Positions 40,870 to 48,968 of a stretch of DNA of 64,000 nucleotides are shown here, piece after piece (position 1 is the first letter of the stretch; every line of letters starts with the position of its first letter). The stretch is from assembly GCA_003666485.1 (NCBI GenBank), contig CP032931.1, forward strand, positions 682,001 to 746,000, written 5' to 3'. The notes beneath the pieces are model-generated. The model was not told the origin of the DNA, did no database searches, and saw only the letters and a program-made list of their open reading frames with translations. Position numbers and translations under genes: made by a program. The stretch comes from Levilactobacillus brevis (GTDB taxonomy: Bacteria; Bacillota; Bacilli; Lactobacillales; Lactobacillaceae).

Positions 40870-40940
40870 CGAATCACCTCAACCTCTTCTGATACGTCCC
40901 ATTCTAACGAAGGTTGCGGGAAAAGGAAAGGAGTTTTCCC

Positions 40941-41369
40941 ATGAAATTATCACTGACATATTGGCTTAAACAAACTGGTATCGGGTTGGTCTTCACCTTG
41001 GTGTTCATGCTCCTGGGCCACCTGAATTATGCGCAGTGGCGCTTGATGCCAGGCATTACCATTGCTGACTGGTACTTTTTGCTGTGTCTGCTGTGCTTTG
41101 CGCTGGCCAAATGGGTCATCCTAGAAGATAGCCGCGACGTGAAGGCGCCTACGATTCGTCGGCGTAAGAAGCGGGGCCAACGCAAAGCCGCGGCACAGAC
41201 GGCTTCCGTTTACGAAAAAATGGCGCAACCAGCCCGAGAACCGCGCTTGCAAGCGGCACCTAAGACGGCACTGAAATGGTATTGGCGGGTCCTCTTAGAT
41301 ATTGTATTAGCCTTCACGAGCCCCTTAATTTTAGGCGGATTTTTAACCTATTCCTTACGGCACAATTAA
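40941..41369 (+). CDS. Membrane protein of unknown function (142 aa)
   Basis: ATG 40941 follows GGAAAGGAG. The product has two N-terminal membrane segments (about residues 13-31 and 46-64), a very basic cytoplasmic stretch (RRRKKRGQRK) and a final segment near the C-terminus. No family recognised. Divergent from greA. Confidence 0.75.
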   Translation: MKLSLTYWLKQTGIGLVFTLVFMLLGHLNYAQWRLMPGITIADWYFLLCLLCFALAKWVILEDSRDVKAPTIRRRKKRGQRKAAAQTASVYEKMAQPAREPRLQAAPKTALKWYWRVLLDIVLAFTSPLILGGFLTYSLRHN

Positions 41370-41579
41370 ATTGTGCTCGGCAACTCCACTTTATCGTGCA
41401 TTAAATGACGTTTGCGCGGGTTCCCCGTGAGTTATGGCATTTAATGGTAAAGTAGTAACAGTTGGAAGGGGTCAGTTTTACGGCAACTGATTTTGCCGGT
41501 CAATCGGTTAAAGTGTACGTGAATCATCACACGAATCATGGCCGGGTAAACCCAATGATTATCTAATCAAATAGTCGGC

Positions 41580-41771
41580 TTGACAGTGTTTTAGTGAAAG
41601 TTATGGCTTAGGTTTGTTAAGAAATGGGTGTCACCAATGTGCTAAAGAGTAAGTTGTGGTTATTGGAGGCCTAGGGTGTGACTGGTTAGAACTTGGGGGA
41701 GTGCTAATTGCCGACGCAGGAATTAAATAATCCACTTAGAAAGGAGCTACCAACGTGGGTAGTTCTTTTTT
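41580..41771 (+). ncRNA. Candidate small transcript upstream of the response regulator gene
   Basis: TTGACA (41580-41585) and TATGGC (41602-41607), 16 bp apart, form a promoter. An intrinsic terminator follows at 41743-41771 (GAGCTACC pairing with GGGTAGTTC, then T residues). The RNA would be about 155 nt. It has only very short frames (a 16-codon one starting ATGGGTGTC) and none with a proper ribosome site. It could be a small RNA or encode an unrecognised signal peptide for the kinase locus. Confidence 0.45.
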
Positions 41772-41972
41772 ATGCGGTCAGCGCGCGGACAAATGGCCGG
41801 TATATCAAGAACGGTCAGGTGATAATTAGCGGTACTAACGATTTGCCGTGAAGTGAGTGATGGCACACCAAGTAAACGGCGTGCAACCGAAACGATTGCA
41901 AATCCCGCAAATTCAAGGTACATTAGTGGGTAATAGGTACGGTGATAGTTTAGTTAAAAGGGTGTGGTATTA
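41772..41972. other. Upstream region of the response regulator gene
   Basis: The gap before the regulator gene starts at 41370. After the small transcript, this part has AACGATT twice (41837 and 41891), 54 bp apart, which may be binding words for a LytTR regulator. No gene seen. Confidence 0.4.
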
Positions 41973-42731
41973 ATGCTAGCCGTTTATCTTTGTGAGGATA
42001 ATCCTGAACAGTTAAAACATTATACGGATGTGGTGCAACGCTACATCATGATTAATGATTATGATATGCAGATTCGACTAGCAACGCCCAGTCCGGCAGA
42101 CTTGCTGGCGAGCTTGCGGGCGGATCCACCAGAGTATGCGTTGTTTTTTTTGGACATTGAGTTCCCGGCTGAGAAGACAACGGGGTTGGAAACGGCCATC
42201 ACGATTCGCCAGGACCTGGCCTTTGCGGAAATCGTGTTCGTCACGACGCATTCGGAGATGGCCCTGTTGACATTTGAGCGTAAGGTCGAGCCTATGGACT
42301 TCATCGTCAAGGATCTGGGGCGTGAGCAGATCGACCAGAAGCTCCGGGAAAATATTGACTACGGGTATCAGCGGTACACCAGCTACTTAGGAAATACTGA
42401 AAATTTATTTACTTATACGATTGGTGGGCGGGCCTTTAACCTGCCAATGGGGGATGTCTATTTTGTGGCGACCGCAGATACCCCGCACAAGGTCACGGTT
42501 CACGCGGCGACCCAGCTGATTGAATACCCGGGCTTCTTAAAAGACATTGCCGATCGGTATCCGGAGCTCTATCGGACGGACAAGAGTTTTTTAGTCAATC
42601 TCGACAATGTCAGTGGCATTGATGAGACCAACCGCCGTCTGATCTTCCCCAACGGCGATCAGACCGACGTGGCCACGCGGCGCTTCCATGAGGTCAAAAC
42701 GCTGGTTCAGAAACATATCAACCGCCCCTGA
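41973..42731 (+). CDS. LytTR response regulator (AgrA/PlnC type)
   Basis: A 252-residue regulator. The receiver domain (1-125) holds the acidic pair in CEDN and the phosphorylated Asp61 in LFFLDIEFP. The LytTR DNA-binding domain (about 150-250) has LYRTDKSFLVNLDNVSGID. Such proteins respond to HPK10 kinases and usually control peptide-based quorum sensing or bacteriocin genes. ATG 41973 is 10 nt after AAAGGG. The stop codon TGA lies within the left-end hairpin of the IS element, so the element may have replaced the original last residues. Confidence 0.9.
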   Translation: MLAVYLCEDNPEQLKHYTDVVQRYIMINDYDMQIRLATPSPADLLASLRADPPEYALFFLDIEFPAEKTTGLETAITIRQDLAFAEIVFVTTHSEMALLTFERKVEPMDFIVKDLGREQIDQKLRENIDYGYQRYTSYLGNTENLFTYTIGGRAFNLPMGDVYFVATADTPHKVTVHAATQLIEYPGFLKDIADRYPELYRTDKSFLVNLDNVSGIDETNRRLIFPNGDQTDVATRRFHEVKTLVQKHINRP

Positions 42732-42734
42732 CTA

Positions 42735-42880
42735 AAAGTCAGAGGTTTGTGGGAACAACATCCTAAAATGTTACGACCACAATTTGCTTAGATACAGCGA
42801 TTGCCTGCATGCAGGTCTTACGTGCTAATTACCAAAGCCTTTAACGTCCGCAGGTTGCCAGACGGACAATGTCTTTTACT
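42735..42880 (-). ncRNA. Predicted omega RNA (TnpB guide scaffold)
   Basis: TnpB guide RNAs derive from the 3' part of tnpB and the adjacent element end. Here that is the 145 nt between the tnpB stop and the left end. It holds GTCCG/CGGAC and CCTGCATGCAGG hairpins. The guide would begin at the element boundary and read into the 3' end of the response regulator gene. Prediction from the family rule only. Confidence 0.5.
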
Positions 42881-44147
42881 GATCTGTTAGTGTAACTAAT
42901 CCTTTAGCTAAAATATTCTTAGCCGCGTTATGGTCACGAATGTGGTAAGCGGTACATCGCGGACAGGTCCATTGTCGATCGGCCAGAGTCAACTTCTGAG
43001 TTGGTTCAGTGCCCATAATAAAACCACAATCACTACACGTTTGCGTGGTATTTCGTGGGTCCACAGTTACGAATTGGCGTTTGTACAAATCGGCCTTATA
43101 CGCAAGCATACCTAAGAGCATTCGCCACCCAACATCGGCAATATTCATTGCGAGTGCGTGGTTGCGTAACAGATTTTTGCTTCTTAACTCTTCGGCGACA
43201 ACCAAATCGTGGTTCTTGATCAGTGCTGTCGAAACAAGATGTAAGAAATTTTTTCGTCGATTAGCTACCTTGCGTTGGATAGTGGCTACCCGTTGCCGTT
43301 GTTTCTGATAGTTTTTAGATTCACGCAAGGAACGATGGGCTTTCTTAGCGCGCGTTGCCCGTCGAGACAGTGTCCGCTGAGCCTTAGCCAACTTACCCTT
43401 GATTGACCGGTAGAATCTGGGGTTAGCAATCACATTGGCGCTGGAATCCGTCAGAAAATTATCCGTGTTTAAATCAATGCCAATGGCTGAATCTGACTGG
43501 GACGTTTCCGAGTTAACAAACGGTTGGTCAGATGCCAACTGGAGGGAAACGTAGTAGCGGCCAGTCGCGTCCATGGAAATAGTCGTTGTGCCAATACGGA
43601 TTTCGGCCTTACGTGCAATTAACTTAGCTGGCATGCCTTTAAATCGTAACCTTCCTAGCTTCGATAGCTGGATATGCTTGTCATCTAGCAGGCGAACACT
43701 GCCGTTAAACATGTTGGGGATCTCAATCTTACTGGCATAGTGATTGGAAGTCTGATATTTTTGTTCGGTTCGTTTCTTGTGAAACACGGGCGTCCCTGCT
43801 CGATGAACTTTCCGAAAATTCTTCCAGGCGGTGCGATAATTCTTGATGGCATTGGCCTTCATATCGCTATCAAGCGCTCGATCATTCAACCAACCGTGAA
43901 TATTGGAAATGTTAATAGCCGGGTGTTTTAATCGTTGCTTCAATGTTTCAATCCGTGTTTGAACTAGCTTAATGGGCGTTTTAACTTGGTGCAACGCGAA
44001 TAACTCCCGGTTCATGCCGTTCATCTCGTTGTAAATGTACCGACTGGCATCGCTATTCAGCTTGATTAAGCGTTTCTGCTCATTAGACGGAAAGACTCTT
44101 AACTTTACGCCGTAATGATACGGTAACTGAGCCATCGTTTTACGCAA
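42876..44147 (-). CDS. tnpB: TnpB RNA-guided nuclease of IS200/IS605 element
   Basis: A 423-residue protein. The split RuvC site is complete: Asp225 (AIGIDLNTDN), Glu in VVAEELRSKN (about 319) and Asp405 (RDHNAAKNIL). The zinc-ribbon cysteines CSDCG and CPRC (371, 374, 395, 398) are present. TnpB uses an omega RNA to cut the donor site left empty by TnpA and so helps keep the element. TTG 44147 is chosen since AAAGGAGG lies 7 nt upstream; GTG 44165 precedes that site. Confidence 0.9.
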   Translation of the reverse strand: MRKTMAQLPYHYGVKLRVFPSNEQKRLIKLNSDASRYIYNEMNGMNRELFALHQVKTPIKLVQTRIETLKQRLKHPAINISNIHGWLNDRALDSDMKANAIKNYRTAWKNFRKVHRAGTPVFHKKRTEQKYQTSNHYASKIEIPNMFNGSVRLLDDKHIQLSKLGRLRFKGMPAKLIARKAEIRIGTTTISMDATGRYYVSLQLASDQPFVNSETSQSDSAIGIDLNTDNFLTDSSANVIANPRFYRSIKGKLAKAQRTLSRRATRAKKAHRSLRESKNYQKQRQRVATIQRKVANRRKNFLHLVSTALIKNHDLVVAEELRSKNLLRNHALAMNIADVGWRMLLGMLAYKADLYKRQFVTVDPRNTTQTCSDCGFIMGTEPTQKLTLADRQWTCPRCTAYHIRDHNAAKNILAKGLVTLTDQ

Positions 44148-44241
44148 ATCACTTCCTCCTTTCACTATGAAATTATGATATCATATAAGGTGATCAGAGC
44201 ATACTGAATACGCTTATAAATAAATTCATAGGAGAGTGCAG

Positions 44242-44706
44242 ATGAGTAAAGAAAATGATCGGATACCAGATGCGATTTATGGACGAGGTTATGTTTATAA
44301 TTTTCATTTTCACCTAATTTGGGTCACAAAGTACCGAAAGCCTATTTTTACGACACCAACGTTGGTGTCTGACATGAAGAAAATTTTGACACGAATCGCC
44401 CAACTAAATGAGGTCACCGTGGAAATAATGGCAATCATGCCAGATCATATTCACCTATTAATCAATTTCAAGCCTAAATACGCACCTACAAATATTGTCA
44501 AGGCCTTTAAGGGGGCCTCTGCACGACTATTTTTCGAGAAATATCCTGAAATCAAACAACAACTCTGGGGCGGTCATCTCTGGTCAAATAGCTATTACAT
44601 GAGTACCCTGGGTAACATGAGTAAAGAAATCGTCGAAAAATATATCAAGAACCAACCTACCAAGAACATTCGAAAAAACAGTGACTGGCATTCCTCTCCT
44701 GATTGA
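44242..44706 (+). CDS. tnpA: TnpA, Y1 HUH transposase of IS200/IS605 element
   Basis: A 154-residue single-strand transposase. The HUH motif is His69-Ile-His71 in MPDHIHLLINF, and the catalytic Tyr134 is in EKYIKNQ. It cuts and joins single-stranded ends at terminal hairpins. ATG 44242 is 7 nt after GGAG. The TGA stop lies inside the right-end hairpin. Divergent from tnpB. Confidence 0.93.
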   Translation: MSKENDRIPDAIYGRGYVYNFHFHLIWVTKYRKPIFTTPTLVSDMKKILTRIAQLNEVTVEIMAIMPDHIHLLINFKPKYAPTNIVKAFKGASARLFFEKYPEIKQQLWGGHLWSNSYYMSTLGNMSKEIVEKYIKNQPTKNIRKNSDWHSSPD

Positions 44707-44758
44707 AATCAGAAGATTCCTGCCTTAGCTATAATTGAAATCATAAGAGGGTGAGTCG

Positions 44759-46090
44759 ATGGCATTACAGCTGTTTAATACCCATTTTTGGATAAACTTT
44801 GTGTTGGCCATCACGATGCAGTGGTTTATCACGCTGTGGATTGGGGTCATTCGACCGCAGAACTGGAAATTGCCACTGAAGTGGATGGGCTGGGCCTTGA
44901 TTCCGGCTTTTATCGGCGAGTCCTGGGCACTAATGCTACCGCCAATCAGTGCGCTGGTCTACCTGATTCATCACCGACCGAAAATGGCGCTGATCTTTGT
45001 CAACGCGACGATTGTGATCTACTTAGTCGTGGTGCTGGTCAATGACGTGGTCAGAGCCGTGTCGATTGAGATCTTTGGCATGGCGACCAGTCAAACCGCA
45101 CTGGTCATTACGGGACGGCTGATTTTTCAACTCTTCATTTACACGCTGTTCTCGCTGGCCGTGTCGGGGATGCGCATCCAGCCGGGGAACTTGGAACGGT
45201 TGGCCTTTAGTCACAAGGAACAGTGGACCGTGATGGCGCTGCTGACCAGTCTGGCCATGCTCGCTCAGCTGTCGTCGTTGATCATTCACCGCATGGCCAT
45301 CACCCACGCGATGATGACCTTCGCGCTGAGCATCGAGCTATTGATGATTCTGGTCATTAGCACCAGCTTATTTTTCTTTCTCCAAAGCTTCTTTCACCGG
45401 CAACGCGTCCAGGCAGAATACCAGGCCACGCTGATCCGGTCGCGCTATGACCGGCGTATTTCCAATCAAGTCCAGGCTATTCGTCAATTCAAGCAGACCT
45501 ACCAAAAGCAGATGCTACGACTGGGCGACTACCTGGATGCCAACGACTATGCCGGTTTGACCCAGTATTATCAAACGCTGAATTCGCGGTGGCAAGCCAC
45601 CAGTCGCATGGTTGGTCTAGAAGAGGTCGGCCTCCAAAAGTTGCAGGACCCACCACTAAAGAGCTTGTTGTTTCAAAAAATCTTGGCGGCGCAAAATCAA
45701 GGCTTGGTGCTCCAATTGGAGATTCCGACCGCAATCAAGACGATTCCGCTGGCCAACGTGAAACTGCAACGCATCGTCGGCATCCTGCTCGATAATGCCA
45801 TTGAAGCGGGCACCGTTGACCAGCGCAATACGATTCACTGCGCCGTGTTAGACTATCCCGACGCCGTTGAAATCGCCGTGGCCAATCCGGTTTCGACTAC
45901 GCAGCCGCCTAAGATCAATCAGTTCATGAATGCGGGCTACACCACGAAGGGCAGTGGCCACGGACAGGGCCTGAGTACGGTACGAGAAATTGTGACGGCC
46001 ACACCGAATGCGGCCTTGCAGATTGAAATCAAGCAGGCACGGCTGTACTTTACGCTGATTTTGACTAAGCCAAAGGGGGTGAGTCAATGA
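44759..46090 (+). CDS. HPK10-like kinase with ATP-binding domain but no phospho-accepting His
   Basis: A 443-residue membrane protein. Six or seven N-terminal membrane segments (about 1-205) form the sensor, as in AgrC/PlnB. The dimerisation region reads FKQTYQKQMLRLGDYL, where family members have F-(R/K)-H-D-Y-x-N: Gln246 replaces His, and the conserved Asp and Asn are also lost. The ATPase domain is intact, with LLDNAIEAG (N box, Asn346) and TTKGSGHGQGLS (G box, 395-406). It can thus bind ATP but cannot accept phosphate itself. Its stop overlaps the start of the next gene by 4 bp (ATGA). Confidence 0.85.
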   Translation: MALQLFNTHFWINFVLAITMQWFITLWIGVIRPQNWKLPLKWMGWALIPAFIGESWALMLPPISALVYLIHHRPKMALIFVNATIVIYLVVVLVNDVVRAVSIEIFGMATSQTALVITGRLIFQLFIYTLFSLAVSGMRIQPGNLERLAFSHKEQWTVMALLTSLAMLAQLSSLIIHRMAITHAMMTFALSIELLMILVISTSLFFFLQSFFHRQRVQAEYQATLIRSRYDRRISNQVQAIRQFKQTYQKQMLRLGDYLDANDYAGLTQYYQTLNSRWQATSRMVGLEEVGLQKLQDPPLKSLLFQKILAAQNQGLVLQLEIPTAIKTIPLANVKLQRIVGILLDNAIEAGTVDQRNTIHCAVLDYPDAVEIAVANPVSTTQPPKINQFMNAGYTTKGSGHGQGLSTVREIVTATPNAALQIEIKQARLYFTLILTKPKGVSQ

Positions 46091-47421
46091 TTACAGTCGG
46101 CCCATTAAGTTTTTCGATAGCGGATTATTCCATCGTGTATTGGTTTGTTTTTTTTCAGTACTATTGGTTCTCGCAATTGGTCATGATGAGACACGTTTCG
46201 CTGTTCTGCGCCATTGTGGCCGGGGCCTATGTGGCTGTTGATCTACTCAATCCCTTTACGGCCGATAGTCGACTGCTGGGAGCCTTACCCGTGATCTTGC
46301 TGCTGGGCTTCGAGTGGGGTGTCTTGGCCCTGCGCCACCAGCTACAATTTTTACCGGCCTTCATTGACGTGACGATTCTGGCGTATTTGATGATCGAATT
46401 CATTGATATGATGGTGATTGCCGCCACGATTCACCTGACCAGTCTGTCCTTTGCCACCAGCTTGTGGGGAACACTCAGCGAACTGGTCATTGACAACATG
46501 ATCTTTGCACTAGTCGCGTCGGGGCTATGGTTTACCAGAGCACCGATGGAAAACATGATTCACGACATGCTGGGCCGGTCGATGGAGTACCTATTTTTGA
46601 CCTTCATGACGATTCTGGCGTTAGTTTATATTTTATTCGAATATTCCTTGCAGTCACTGCAAGAATCCGCGCAATACCTGATTTTCCTCGGTGGGATTGC
46701 AGGGACCCTGGTCGTTGGGTTGTCACTGAGCACGTACATGCTGATGCAGACGCACCTGCAAGCCACCCACAGCCACCTGCAAGCCCAGGGACAGGAGTTT
46801 CGCGAGCAATACACCACCGAATTGAACCGGCAAATGGCCGCCGTGAAGAAATTCAATCACGACTATCAAAACATGTTGTTGGGGCTGGGTGGTTACCTGG
46901 CAGATCACGATTACGCGGGCTTCCGCCAGTTCTACATCGACATTCGTTCCGGTTGGGAGACCAGTAACGCCGCCGAATTGACGATTGAGGACCTGGCTAA
47001 CGTGCCCAATACCGAGTTGCGGTTTCGGCTGTACCACAATTATTTGTTGGCGCGGCAACAGGAGGTCCAGCTCTTCGTCCAGATACCCGCGCCCCTGACA
47101 GCCACGGTGGCGGTGCTCAAGCAAATGGGGAAGATCGTTGACAAGACGTTGCCGCGTAATTTGCCAACGCTCGGTAAGGCCCAACCGGCCACCGTGACCT
47201 TCGCCTTGCAGGAGACGCCGCAAGAGCTGCACTGGTTACTGACGTTTCCGGTGCCCAACAATGCGCAGCTAGATGGTCACAGTCGGGTGCTCACTGATGT
47301 GGGTGTATTAGATTTTTCTAATATACATGGCATGTTACCCGCCAAAGCCACCAGTACTTTACAGATAAAATTCCATTGGGGCCAATTAATCGTGGCGCTA
47401 CCGAAGTCATCGACGGGATAG
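46087..47421 (+). CDS. HPK10-like kinase with phospho-accepting His but degenerate ATP-binding domain
   Basis: A 444-residue membrane protein with six or seven N-terminal segments. The His box VKKFNHDYQNMLLGLGGYL is canonical (His258, Asp259, Asn262). The ATP-binding part is decayed: the N-box position reads KIVDKTLPRN (349 onward) instead of LDNAIEA, and no GxGxG G box is found near the C-terminus (LTDVGVLDFSNIHGM). It can accept phosphate but should not bind ATP. Translationally coupled to the preceding protein, with the complementary defect. The two likely work as a hetero-pair. Confidence 0.85.
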   Translation: MITVGPLSFSIADYSIVYWFVFFQYYWFSQLVMMRHVSLFCAIVAGAYVAVDLLNPFTADSRLLGALPVILLLGFEWGVLALRHQLQFLPAFIDVTILAYLMIEFIDMMVIAATIHLTSLSFATSLWGTLSELVIDNMIFALVASGLWFTRAPMENMIHDMLGRSMEYLFLTFMTILALVYILFEYSLQSLQESAQYLIFLGGIAGTLVVGLSLSTYMLMQTHLQATHSHLQAQGQEFREQYTTELNRQMAAVKKFNHDYQNMLLGLGGYLADHDYAGFRQFYIDIRSGWETSNAAELTIEDLANVPNTELRFRLYHNYLLARQQEVQLFVQIPAPLTATVAVLKQMGKIVDKTLPRNLPTLGKAQPATVTFALQETPQELHWLLTFPVPNNAQLDGHSRVLTDVGVLDFSNIHGMLPAKATSTLQIKFHWGQLIVALPKSSTG

Positions 47422-47498
47422 CCCGCCCCTTGGAGCTTTCACAAAGTCAGTAGGGCAAACCGTTTACTGAATACTAACGTCCGAATAAACTAATTCAC

Positions 47499-47535
47499 TG
47501 AAAACGCTTGCATTTCTACGGCCATCTGATATACT
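47499..47535 (+). promoter_or_regulatory. Promoter with overlapping cre site
   Basis: TTGCAT (47508-47513), 16-bp spacer, TATACT (47530-47535). TGAAAACGCTTGCA at 47499-47512 is a good cre and overlaps the -35. It drives the transcript below. Confidence 0.7.
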
Positions 47536-47541
47536 AGGTCT

Positions 47542-47815
47542 TGTAATACCAATCAATCTTTCAGGGAGCCTGGAAAATAAAGTGATTTTGCAGGTTCTTG
47601 ACATTGTGAAGTTTCTCTCAATCGGTGTGATTAGGAAAAACTTCATGGCACAATTAGTTTTAACTAACTAAAAGTGATTTGAATTGCTCAATACTACATA
47701 TTGAGATTATGGCTGATTTGAGTGACAGCGTTTTCCTGACTACAAACTGTGATTATGTTGAATGCTCTAATGATGCTAGTGGGAGTCGGAGAGTGGTTAC
47801 TCCGGCTTTTTTTTG
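47542..47815 (+). ncRNA. Candidate CcpA-controlled small RNA or small-peptide mRNA
   Basis: Between the cre-bearing promoter and a strong terminator (47784-47814: GTCGGAG pairing with CTCCGGC, then eight T residues) lies about 270 nt with no normal gene. A hairpin GAAGTTT/AAACTTC lies in the middle. A 29-codon GTG frame (product starting MILQVLDIVKFL) follows a weak GGGAG at a long 13-nt distance. An RNA of this size under glucose control is the simplest reading. Confidence 0.55.
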
Positions 47816-47821
47816 TGCACT

Positions 47822-47861
47822 AAAAAGGGTCCGTGGCTATTCGTAGCCGCGGGCCCTTTTC
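47822..47861. terminator. Bidirectional terminator
   Basis: AAAAGGGTCCGTGGCT pairs with AGCCGCGGGCCCTTTT around ATTCGT. On the minus strand it closes the 28-aa peptide gene. Confidence 0.85.
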
Positions 47862-47893
47862 TAAGTGAAATGCCGCATGTCATTTTGGAAACT

Positions 47894-47980
47894 TCAGGAT
47901 AAATTTAAGATTCCCCAAATCAATAAGATAGCGAGTAGCAGCAGTAAAAGAATGAGAGAAACCCGCGATTGCCAACGCAT
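47894..47980 (-). CDS. Very small hydrophobic peptide (28 aa)
   Basis: ATG 47980 follows AGGGGGGA by 4 nt. The product, starting MRWQSRVSLILLLLL and ending WGILNLS, is a basic N-terminus plus one membrane helix. It has its own terminator. Small single-helix peptides of this kind occur as membrane-protein partners or type I toxins; no antisense RNA is evident. Function unknown. Confidence 0.6.
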   Translation of the reverse strand: MRWQSRVSLILLLLLLAILLIWGILNLS

Positions 47981-48077
47981 CAAATCCCCCCTAAGCCGAC
48001 TTACTAAATTTAGTGTATCAGGTGAAAATGGTTAACGGTTGTAATCGTCTAAATCGACATTTATTTGACGATAATGC

Positions 48078-48968
48078 TCAATCCAATCGAAAATTGGCGA
48101 AATCAAGGGGTAGCGGCGCCGTCACGGTCGTTTCCGGTGAATCGAGGGTAAACGGTTGTGGAAAGCGTAATTGCCAGCAGTGGAGCCGTAAACGGCTGTG
48201 GCTGGGGGCAGCGTAAAGCGGATCGCCAATCAGGGGATGGCCGGCGTGCGCCAAGTGAACGCGCAATTGATGGGTCCGACCGGTCTCTAGCCACAGCTTG
48301 ACTAGTGTGGCCTGGGGCTGATGATCGAGGACTTCATAATGCGTGATTGCCGACTGGGCGTGGGGGCCGTTGACCAGTCGTTTTCGTTTGTCATGCGGGT
48401 CACGGCCAATGGGGTCGCTGAAGGTGCCTTGACCCGTGAGTGTGCCTTGGACCCACGCCAGGTAAGTGCGCTGGACCTGCTTTTGGGCAATGTAGCGGAC
48501 CATGATGGGGACCACAGCGGGGGTCTTGGTCATCAGTAAGGCGCCGGTCGTTTCCTGATCTAAGCGGCTCAAAATATAAGGCCCAGGTTGATCCGGTCCC
48601 AGGTAAGCAGCCACGTGATTCAGGGTCGTGCCGCGTTCCCAGGGCAGGTTGGGATGCGTCTTACTGCCACGGGTCTTGTTGATGACGAGGAGGTCGGCCG
48701 TTTCGTAGAGTACGCTGACGGTGGCGGCACTGTCGGGTTCAACGGCGGGGAAGGGCTCCTTGAAGTCGCTGGGCACAAATCGCAACTGAACGGTCTCGCC
48801 GCCGCTGACCAGTTGGTTCATGGACCGGTATTGGCCGTCAACTAAGACCCGCCGGTTGATTCGCAGGTCGTGAATGAGGTGGCTGGGTAAGACCCACGCG
48901 GACAACAGGGCGCGCAGAGGCATGGCGGGTTGGGTGTCGGGAAGGGGAATCGTGTAAGACCACTGCAT
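48078..48968 (-). CDS. RluA/RluD-family pseudouridine synthase
   Basis: A 296-residue RNA-modifying enzyme. The catalytic Asp137 is in ILSRLDQETTGALLM (the usual HRLD reads SRLD), and LETGRTHQLRVHLAHAGHPLIGD is the second family motif. A shortened S4-like N-terminal domain (about 1-65) precedes it. It converts specific uridines in rRNA or tRNA to pseudouridine; which ones is unknown. ATG 48968 follows AAGGAG. Confidence 0.9.
   Translation of the reverse strand: MQWSYTIPLPDTQPAMPLRALLSAWVLPSHLIHDLRINRRVLVDGQYRSMNQLVSGGETVQLRFVPSDFKEPFPAVEPDSAATVSVLYETADLLVINKTRGSKTHPNLPWERGTTLNHVAAYLGPDQPGPYILSRLDQETTGALLMTKTPAVVPIMVRYIAQKQVQRTYLAWVQGTLTGQGTFSDPIGRDPHDKRKRLVNGPHAQSAITHYEVLDHQPQATLVKLWLETGRTHQLRVHLAHAGHPLIGDPLYAAPSHSRLRLHCWQLRFPQPFTLDSPETTVTAPLPLDFANFRLD

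Follow-up and report, generated by a model that had tools for sequence, protein, structure and literature searches.

Two adjacent genes in a 64,000-nucleotide stretch of the Levilactobacillus brevis contig CP032931.1 (assembly GCA_003666485.1, positions 682,001 to 746,000; hereafter the window, whose numbering is used throughout) encode histidine kinases with complementary catalytic defects. The first, HK1 (44759..46090, + strand, 443 amino acids), is predicted to be a catalytic subunit that binds ATP, and the second, HK2 (46087..47421, + strand, 444 amino acids), a phospho-acceptor subunit. Comparison of the sequences establishes that the motifs of the two proteins are complementary, that the pair is conserved and adjacent across the genus, and that both genes are under purifying selection. 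We consider it likely that HK1 and HK2 constitute a natural, obligately heteromeric AgrC-type kinase, in which HK1 phosphorylates His258 of HK2 and HK2 in turn feeds the adjacent LytTR response regulator.

HK1 consists of a membrane part (residues ∼1-215), a degenerate dimerisation helix and an intact ATP-binding domain. In its acceptor motif, FKQTYQKQ (residues 244-251; 45488..45511, +), Gln246 replaces the phospho-accepting His, Thr247 the Asp and Lys250 the Asn of HDYxN. The N box LLDNAIEAG (residues 343-351; 45785..45811, +) and the G box GSGHGQGLS (residues 398-406; 45950..45976, +) are intact. HK2 comprises a membrane part, an intact acceptor helix with NHDYQN (residues 257-262, with His258; 46855..46872, +) and an ATPase-like fold with neither N nor G box, DKTLPRN (residues 352-358; 47140..47160, +) standing at the place of the N box. 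When both proteins were aligned with the solved AgrC kinase (6e52), Gln246 of HK1 fell on the histidine of HDY and the N and G boxes coincided; HDYQN of HK2 fell on HDYVN of AgrC, and the HK2 profile match ended before the AgrC G box. A complete set of kinase motifs is thus found only in the pair jointly, neither protein having all of them. These features had been described in a sequence-only reading of the window, and the open reading frames and the AgrC alignment bear them out in both proteins, as they do the reported 4-bp overlap of the two genes (ATGA, both frames on the + strand).

Both HK1 and HK2 are related in sequence and fold to the cytoplasmic kinase module of AgrC. Profile comparison with 6e52 gave E-values of 1.7e-34 (HK1) and 1.1e-10 (HK2), and in structure models of either protein AgrC was the best solved match (6e52 and 4bxi). 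In HK1 the Pfam search identified the GHKL ATPase domain (6.5e-10); HK2, searched at E up to 1, matched no family. In the model, the C-terminus of HK2 nevertheless adopts the AgrC ATPase fold, so that an ATPase-like fold appears to survive there. Neither protein reached the curated cut-off of the NCBIfam AgrC equivalog NF046015 (134.5 bits for HK1 and 40.8 bits for HK2 vs. 500).

The reciprocal pattern was expected to recur in homologues from related species if it reflects a division of labour, and it does so throughout the genus. The adjacent pair was found in 34 of the 35 Levilactobacillus genomes searched, our own included; the single genome without it is 72% complete. Among the 34 genomes neither gene was found alone, and in the stretches read the order is regulator, HK1, HK2, except in G007, where HK1 stands at the start of the contig and the end of a different contig carries a LytTR domain. 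Every HK1 (34/34) has LLDNA at the N box and HG[QL]GL at the G box. Every HK2-type protein (41/41) has HDYQN, none has the N box, and GxG[LMF] is absent from 40 of the 41; the exception is GEGF in the second HK2-type protein of G012, which fits this loose G-box pattern in a protein without the N box. A full motif set, which would have spoken against divided labour, was present in no orthologue of either protein. By motif content, then, the pair classes as a split histidine kinase in 34/34 genomes.

The acceptor position of HK1 varies from species to species: Gln in 24 genomes, Arg in 5 and His in 5. The following residue is Thr, Asn, Ile, Leu, Gln or Arg, and is acidic in 0/34; position +4 is Asn in 0/34. 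Where the acceptor position is His, the neighbour is always Asn or Thr, never Asp or Glu. Drift of this kind is expected of a site freed from constraint. Frame lengths are 438-452 amino acids for HK1 and 439-448 for HK2, apart from one 377-residue frame in G024 (L107), where the gene is split, its first 53 residues being encoded in a different frame. Full-length frames are therefore present in 34/34 genomes for HK1 and in 33/34 for HK2.

A second HK2-type gene immediately follows HK2 in 7/34 genomes (G003, G004, G012, G013, G021, G022 and G024), which suggests that one HK1 may be common to two acceptor subunits in these species. The stretches that carry this second gene are L087, L088, L095, L096, L104, L105 and L107.

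As a control, 46 kinases were read from 40 stretches of 37 genomes of other genera, drawn from the best matches outside the genus. HD[YFI]xN was present in 46/46, the DNA of the N box in 46/46 and the G box in 45/46, the single kinase without it being a truncated frame. The pattern of the pair is not due to chance, since it holds across 34 genomes while the comparison kinases are intact. These kinases had been selected for strong matches to the two profiles, in most cases the HK1 profile, which includes the ATPase domain. Kinases that have no ATPase domain are therefore under-sampled, and the control tests the acceptor more fairly than it does the ATP site. A sample of 397 genomes of the family was searched with both profiles, and among the matches listed there was no second case of an HK1/HK2-like pair outside the genus. 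Outside the genus these matches reached at best 180 bits for HK1 and 89 bits for HK2, both in G124; inside the genus the scores were at least 749 bits for HK1 and at least 497 bits for HK2-type proteins.

Selection on the two genes was estimated from the ratio of nonsynonymous to synonymous substitution rates (dN/dS) over the whole gene. In the 7/19 species pairs with dS <1, dN/dS ranged from 0.014 to 0.049 (HK1) and from 0.024 to 0.056 (HK2), the remaining 12/19 pairs being saturated or nearly so (0.025-0.067 or undefined). Values near 1 were not observed for either gene, and the ratios lie far below it. Constraint within HK2 is strongest in the acceptor region (mean column entropy 0.55) and weakest in the ATPase-like part (1.33), where purifying selection nevertheless persists. 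A quick tree built from 119 proteins placed HK1 and the HK2-type proteins in two groups of their own, both with full support and a long stem, so that both losses appear older than the genus. Duplication followed by complementary loss in the genus ancestor is the likely history, as judged from these sequences. The proposal of split labour under selection thus gains support from comparative evidence: the genus-wide pattern, the low dN/dS and the co-occurrence of the two genes.

The response regulator encoded upstream is AgrA-like (41964..42731, + strand; the ATG at 41973 is the likelier start). Pfam detected Response_reg and LytTR in it, i.e. a receiver with its acceptor Asp and a LytTR domain, and LDIEFP around this Asp is invariant in the 34 rows covering the site. 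Of the matches to the GHKL ATPase family in its own genome, only HK1 is strong (42.7 bits, cut-off 22); three others, at 24.9 bits (over the cut-off) and at 20.6 and 20.3 bits (under it), lie in frames of 494-623 amino acids. LytTR has two matches in this genome, the regulator and a frame of only 172 amino acids. HK2 is therefore left with no other obvious close partner. Charging of HK2 by another AgrC-type kinase of this genome is unlikely, the other GHKL matches being weak and in larger frames.

We propose that one AgrC-type receptor kinase is formed jointly by HK1 and HK2, its two subunits having descended from complete kinases by complementary loss. Pairing of these membrane proteins would take place through their dimerisation helices; on receptor activation, the ATP-binding domain of HK1 would phosphorylate His258 of HK2 in trans, and HK2 would pass the phosphate to the LytTR regulator. 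Homodimers of HK1 would have no canonical phosphate acceptor and homodimers of HK2 could not use ATP, so that a signal would arise only through the mixed complex. In the species with two HK2-type subunits, a single HK1 would serve both. With both the Asn and the acidic residue of HDYxN in place, HK2 probably dephosphorylates the regulator as well, and HK2 free of HK1 could act as a phosphatase, as in a published model of a split kinase (PMC3591291). Pairing of HK1 with HK2, the direction of phosphotransfer (HK1 to His258 to regulator), the phosphatase role and the signal are what we infer from the motifs and their conservation. AgrC itself is reported to function as a dimer, the autophosphorylation taking place between its two monomers (PMC6755735; PMC3841183). 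Kinases that phosphorylate in cis and in trans are both reported (PMC5956149), so that the heteromeric reading requires a trans geometry.

Several observations weigh against this proposal. The acceptor position is His in 5/34 HK1 proteins, as noted above. The structure models have mean predicted local distance difference test (pLDDT) scores of 69 and 62, a modest confidence. In the tree, the union of HK1 with HK2 received a Shimodaira-Hasegawa-like approximate likelihood ratio (SH-aLRT) value of only 87, with long-branch warnings. A charge-pairing test of the linker gave mean charges of +5.3 for HK1 (strongly positive), +0.9 for HK2 (not acidic) and +0.4 for the comparison kinases; this signal is weak and one-sided and gives no clear electrostatic code. 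The regulator frame is interrupted by ∼1.3 kb in G014 (L097 9617-11750) and divided into two overlapping frames in G021 (L104 10575-11337), and HK2 is split in G024. In the window copy itself, an insertion sequence (IS) element lies between the regulator and HK1. The broken frames and the insertion may mean that the system is dispensable or altered in some strains. The damage to the regulator in G014 and G021 means either that the operon was disrupted on more than one occasion within the genus or that the assemblies contain errors.

Broken frames are also what one would expect if two duplicated kinases had simply decayed, the regulator or HK2 being interrupted or split in G014, G021 and G024, and motif loss in single genes is common. 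Against this, HK1 is full-length in every genome and HK2 in all but one, dN/dS is far below 1, and the same complementary pattern recurs everywhere. Simple decay is contradicted by the low dN/dS together with the conserved complementary pattern, and we regard ordinary decay as scarcely credible. HK1 might instead autophosphorylate at a non-canonical residue and signal alone, with HK2 acting as a decoy or as a phosphatase of the regulator. Such a scheme would fit the occurrence of His at the acceptor position in five HK1 proteins, and also the retention by HK2 of the Asn of HDYxN, a residue linked to phosphatase activity in other families. The acceptor position of HK1, however, varies among Gln, Arg and His, its neighbour is never acidic and position +4 is never Asn, whereas the acceptor region of HK2 is the most constrained part of the pair. 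Signalling by HK1 alone is, in our judgement, very unlikely.

The remaining alternative is that HK1 and HK2 form mainly regulatory homodimers and share no kinase activity, with HK1 serving as an ATP-dependent inhibitor or scaffold and HK2 receiving its phosphate from an unrelated kinase or a small phosphodonor. The ATPase-like remnant of HK2 is under purifying selection and so has some job, and inhibitory sensor kinases exist: RetS of Pseudomonas aeruginosa is reported to form a heterodimer with a second sensor kinase, GacS, and to inhibit it (PMC12189002). That complex differs from the arrangement proposed here in being regulatory cross-talk between kinases and not two complementary halves of one active site. 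The homodimer explanation leaves unaccounted for that the N and G boxes of HK1 are kept in 34/34 genomes, always beside a protein that retains exactly what HK1 is without, and no other AgrC-type ATPase stands out in its own genome. We hold it to be unlikely, and favour the heteromeric kinase.

Kinases divided between two proteins have been described in the CheA family. In Rhodobacter sphaeroides, ATP binding and the phosphorylated His reside on separate proteins, CheA3 and CheA4, and autophosphorylation is reported only when both are together (PMC3591291). This bipartite kinase demonstrates that the principle of a split kinase works, and HK1/HK2 resemble it in that ATP binding and the acceptor His are divided between proteins. 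They differ in that CheA3/CheA4 are CheA-family proteins of a cytoplasmic cluster from which whole domains are missing, whereas HK1 and HK2 are full-length membrane receptors of the dimerising HDYxN type, with residue-level loss in HK1 and motif loss within a surviving fold in HK2. Hik36-Hik43 of Synechocystis is termed a split histidine kinase, and two-hybrid contacts are described between the halves and with the regulator (PMC7656254); in contrast to HK1/HK2, it is of the CheA/Pil type, its genes lie far apart and a histidine phosphotransfer (HPt) domain is the acceptor.

A further close likeness is to AgrC of Staphylococcus aureus, which shares the polytopic membrane part, the HDYxN helix (here in HK2), the N and G boxes (here in HK1) and a LytTR partner. 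It differs in that one gene carries all the motifs and its product forms a homodimer, while here the motifs are divided over two genes. AgrC belongs to the HPK10 group of the Grebe-Stock classification. Its His239 is given as the predicted phosphorylation site, and two G-box glycines as critical for ATP binding (PMC6755735). HK1/HK2 resemble a natural equivalent of AgrC mixed-dimer mutants, which were laboratory mutations of one gene. George Cisar and colleagues reportedly found in 2009 that an acceptor-His mutant and a G-box mutant of AgrC, when co-expressed, restore signalling through asymmetric dimers; no other experiment considered here comes as near to the present case. Rv0600c/Rv0601c of Mycobacterium tuberculosis is also regarded as a split kinase, and we do not lean on this example. 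No published description of a split AgrC-type receptor was found in the open-access literature. Split kinases are already known in the CheA family, and a split AgrC-type receptor is a new variant.

For homodimeric receptor kinases working in trans, gene duplication has always offered, in principle, a way to share out the active site between two copies, and laboratory mutants of AgrC have reportedly shown this. If our proposal is correct, the genus offers a natural case in which evolution took this route, with a receptor that needs two different proteins and possibly two inputs. It would also provide a clean test system for cis vs. trans phosphorylation, for dimer specificity and for the separation of kinase and phosphatase activities. 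Levilactobacillus is a common group of food bacteria, and the switch-like behaviour predicted for split kinases would become testable in food-grade bacteria. Modelling of such kinases is reported to predict ultrasensitive or bistable switching, the free acceptor protein acting as a phosphatase (PMC3591291).

Two conserved non-coding elements flank the system. RNA-D (47541..47814, + strand), downstream of HK2, is probably a structured RNA and ends in a terminator hairpin. It was matched 3′ of the kinases in 33/33 relatives and is single-copy in its own genome. In G011, G020 and G026 it is 93-94% identical, compared with 78% for HK1 and 72% for HK2. At BLAST sensitivity, it accompanied the kinase pair in 25/25 of the family genomes that have the pair, and the other 372 of the 397 yielded only one ∼35-base match. 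A consensus fold from 27/34 sequences contains 40 pairs; in 18 of these both partners have changed, vs. 10.3 in shuffles (0/500 as high) and 7-9 in slid versions, the fold having been taken from the alignment on which it was tested and relatedness inflating shuffle tests. RNA-U (41444..41775, + strand, boundaries approximate) is a conserved stretch with a terminator between an upstream membrane-protein gene and the regulator promoter; it is also single-copy in its own genome and was matched in 29/33 relatives, in 4 of these only in pieces of 20-27 bases. A search of 41300-48150, which covers both elements, against Rfam had no hit at E up to 1. Conserved short frames in the two stretches were not accepted as genes, because their alignments are full of insertions and deletions.

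A site at 47499..47512 (+ strand) matches the catabolite-repression (cre) consensus exactly. The window has no other match (0.02 expected); the site overlies the putative RNA-D promoter, and is exact in 23/34 genomes and near-exact in 10 more. The conserved promoter-like region of the regulator operon (41890..41937, + strand) has TTGCAA, 17 nucleotides and TACATT, a pattern with one match in the genome. Consensus scans of 41370-48080 revealed no excess of promoters (6 vs. 10.2 in shuffles) or of terminators (8 vs. 7.6), the hairpin at 47781-47810 being among the 8.

A wider reading, which we put forward tentatively and consider doubtful as a whole, is that the receptor works as an AND gate: both membrane sensor parts would have to engage for one phosphate to be transferred, and the regulator would control one or two uncatalogued structured RNAs, in an agr-like system with RNA-D in the place of RNAIII. 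The neighbouring non-coding elements would then be regulated by the LytTR regulator. A pheromone gene was not found among the conserved neighbours (at least 90 amino acids), the short frames of the two non-coding stretches or the AgrB search of the genome. AgrB (PF04647) had no match in the genome; none of 14 control genomes gave one over the cut-off either, so that the sensitivity of this search is not established.

The host genome is that of a Levilactobacillus (3.1 Mb), and its HK1 is 92% identical to the L. angrenensis orthologue. In L. angrenensis, the nearest relative read (L065), the regulator and HK1 are separated by 9 bases and the IS is absent. In the window copy the two genes are separated by an IS200/IS605-type element (42732-44758), which is not part of the system and carries a TnpB-like gene (42876-44165, - strand) and a Y1 transposase gene (44236-44706, + strand). 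The ribosome-binding region of HK1 is retained and the final residues of the regulator are altered; the kinases of this strain may be expressed differently. Neighbouring genes encode a GreA-like factor, a pseudouridine synthase, a universal stress protein and, upstream of the regulator, a small membrane protein of 151 amino acids with no Pfam match (40914-41369, + strand). The gene for this membrane protein is present at 28/34 loci.

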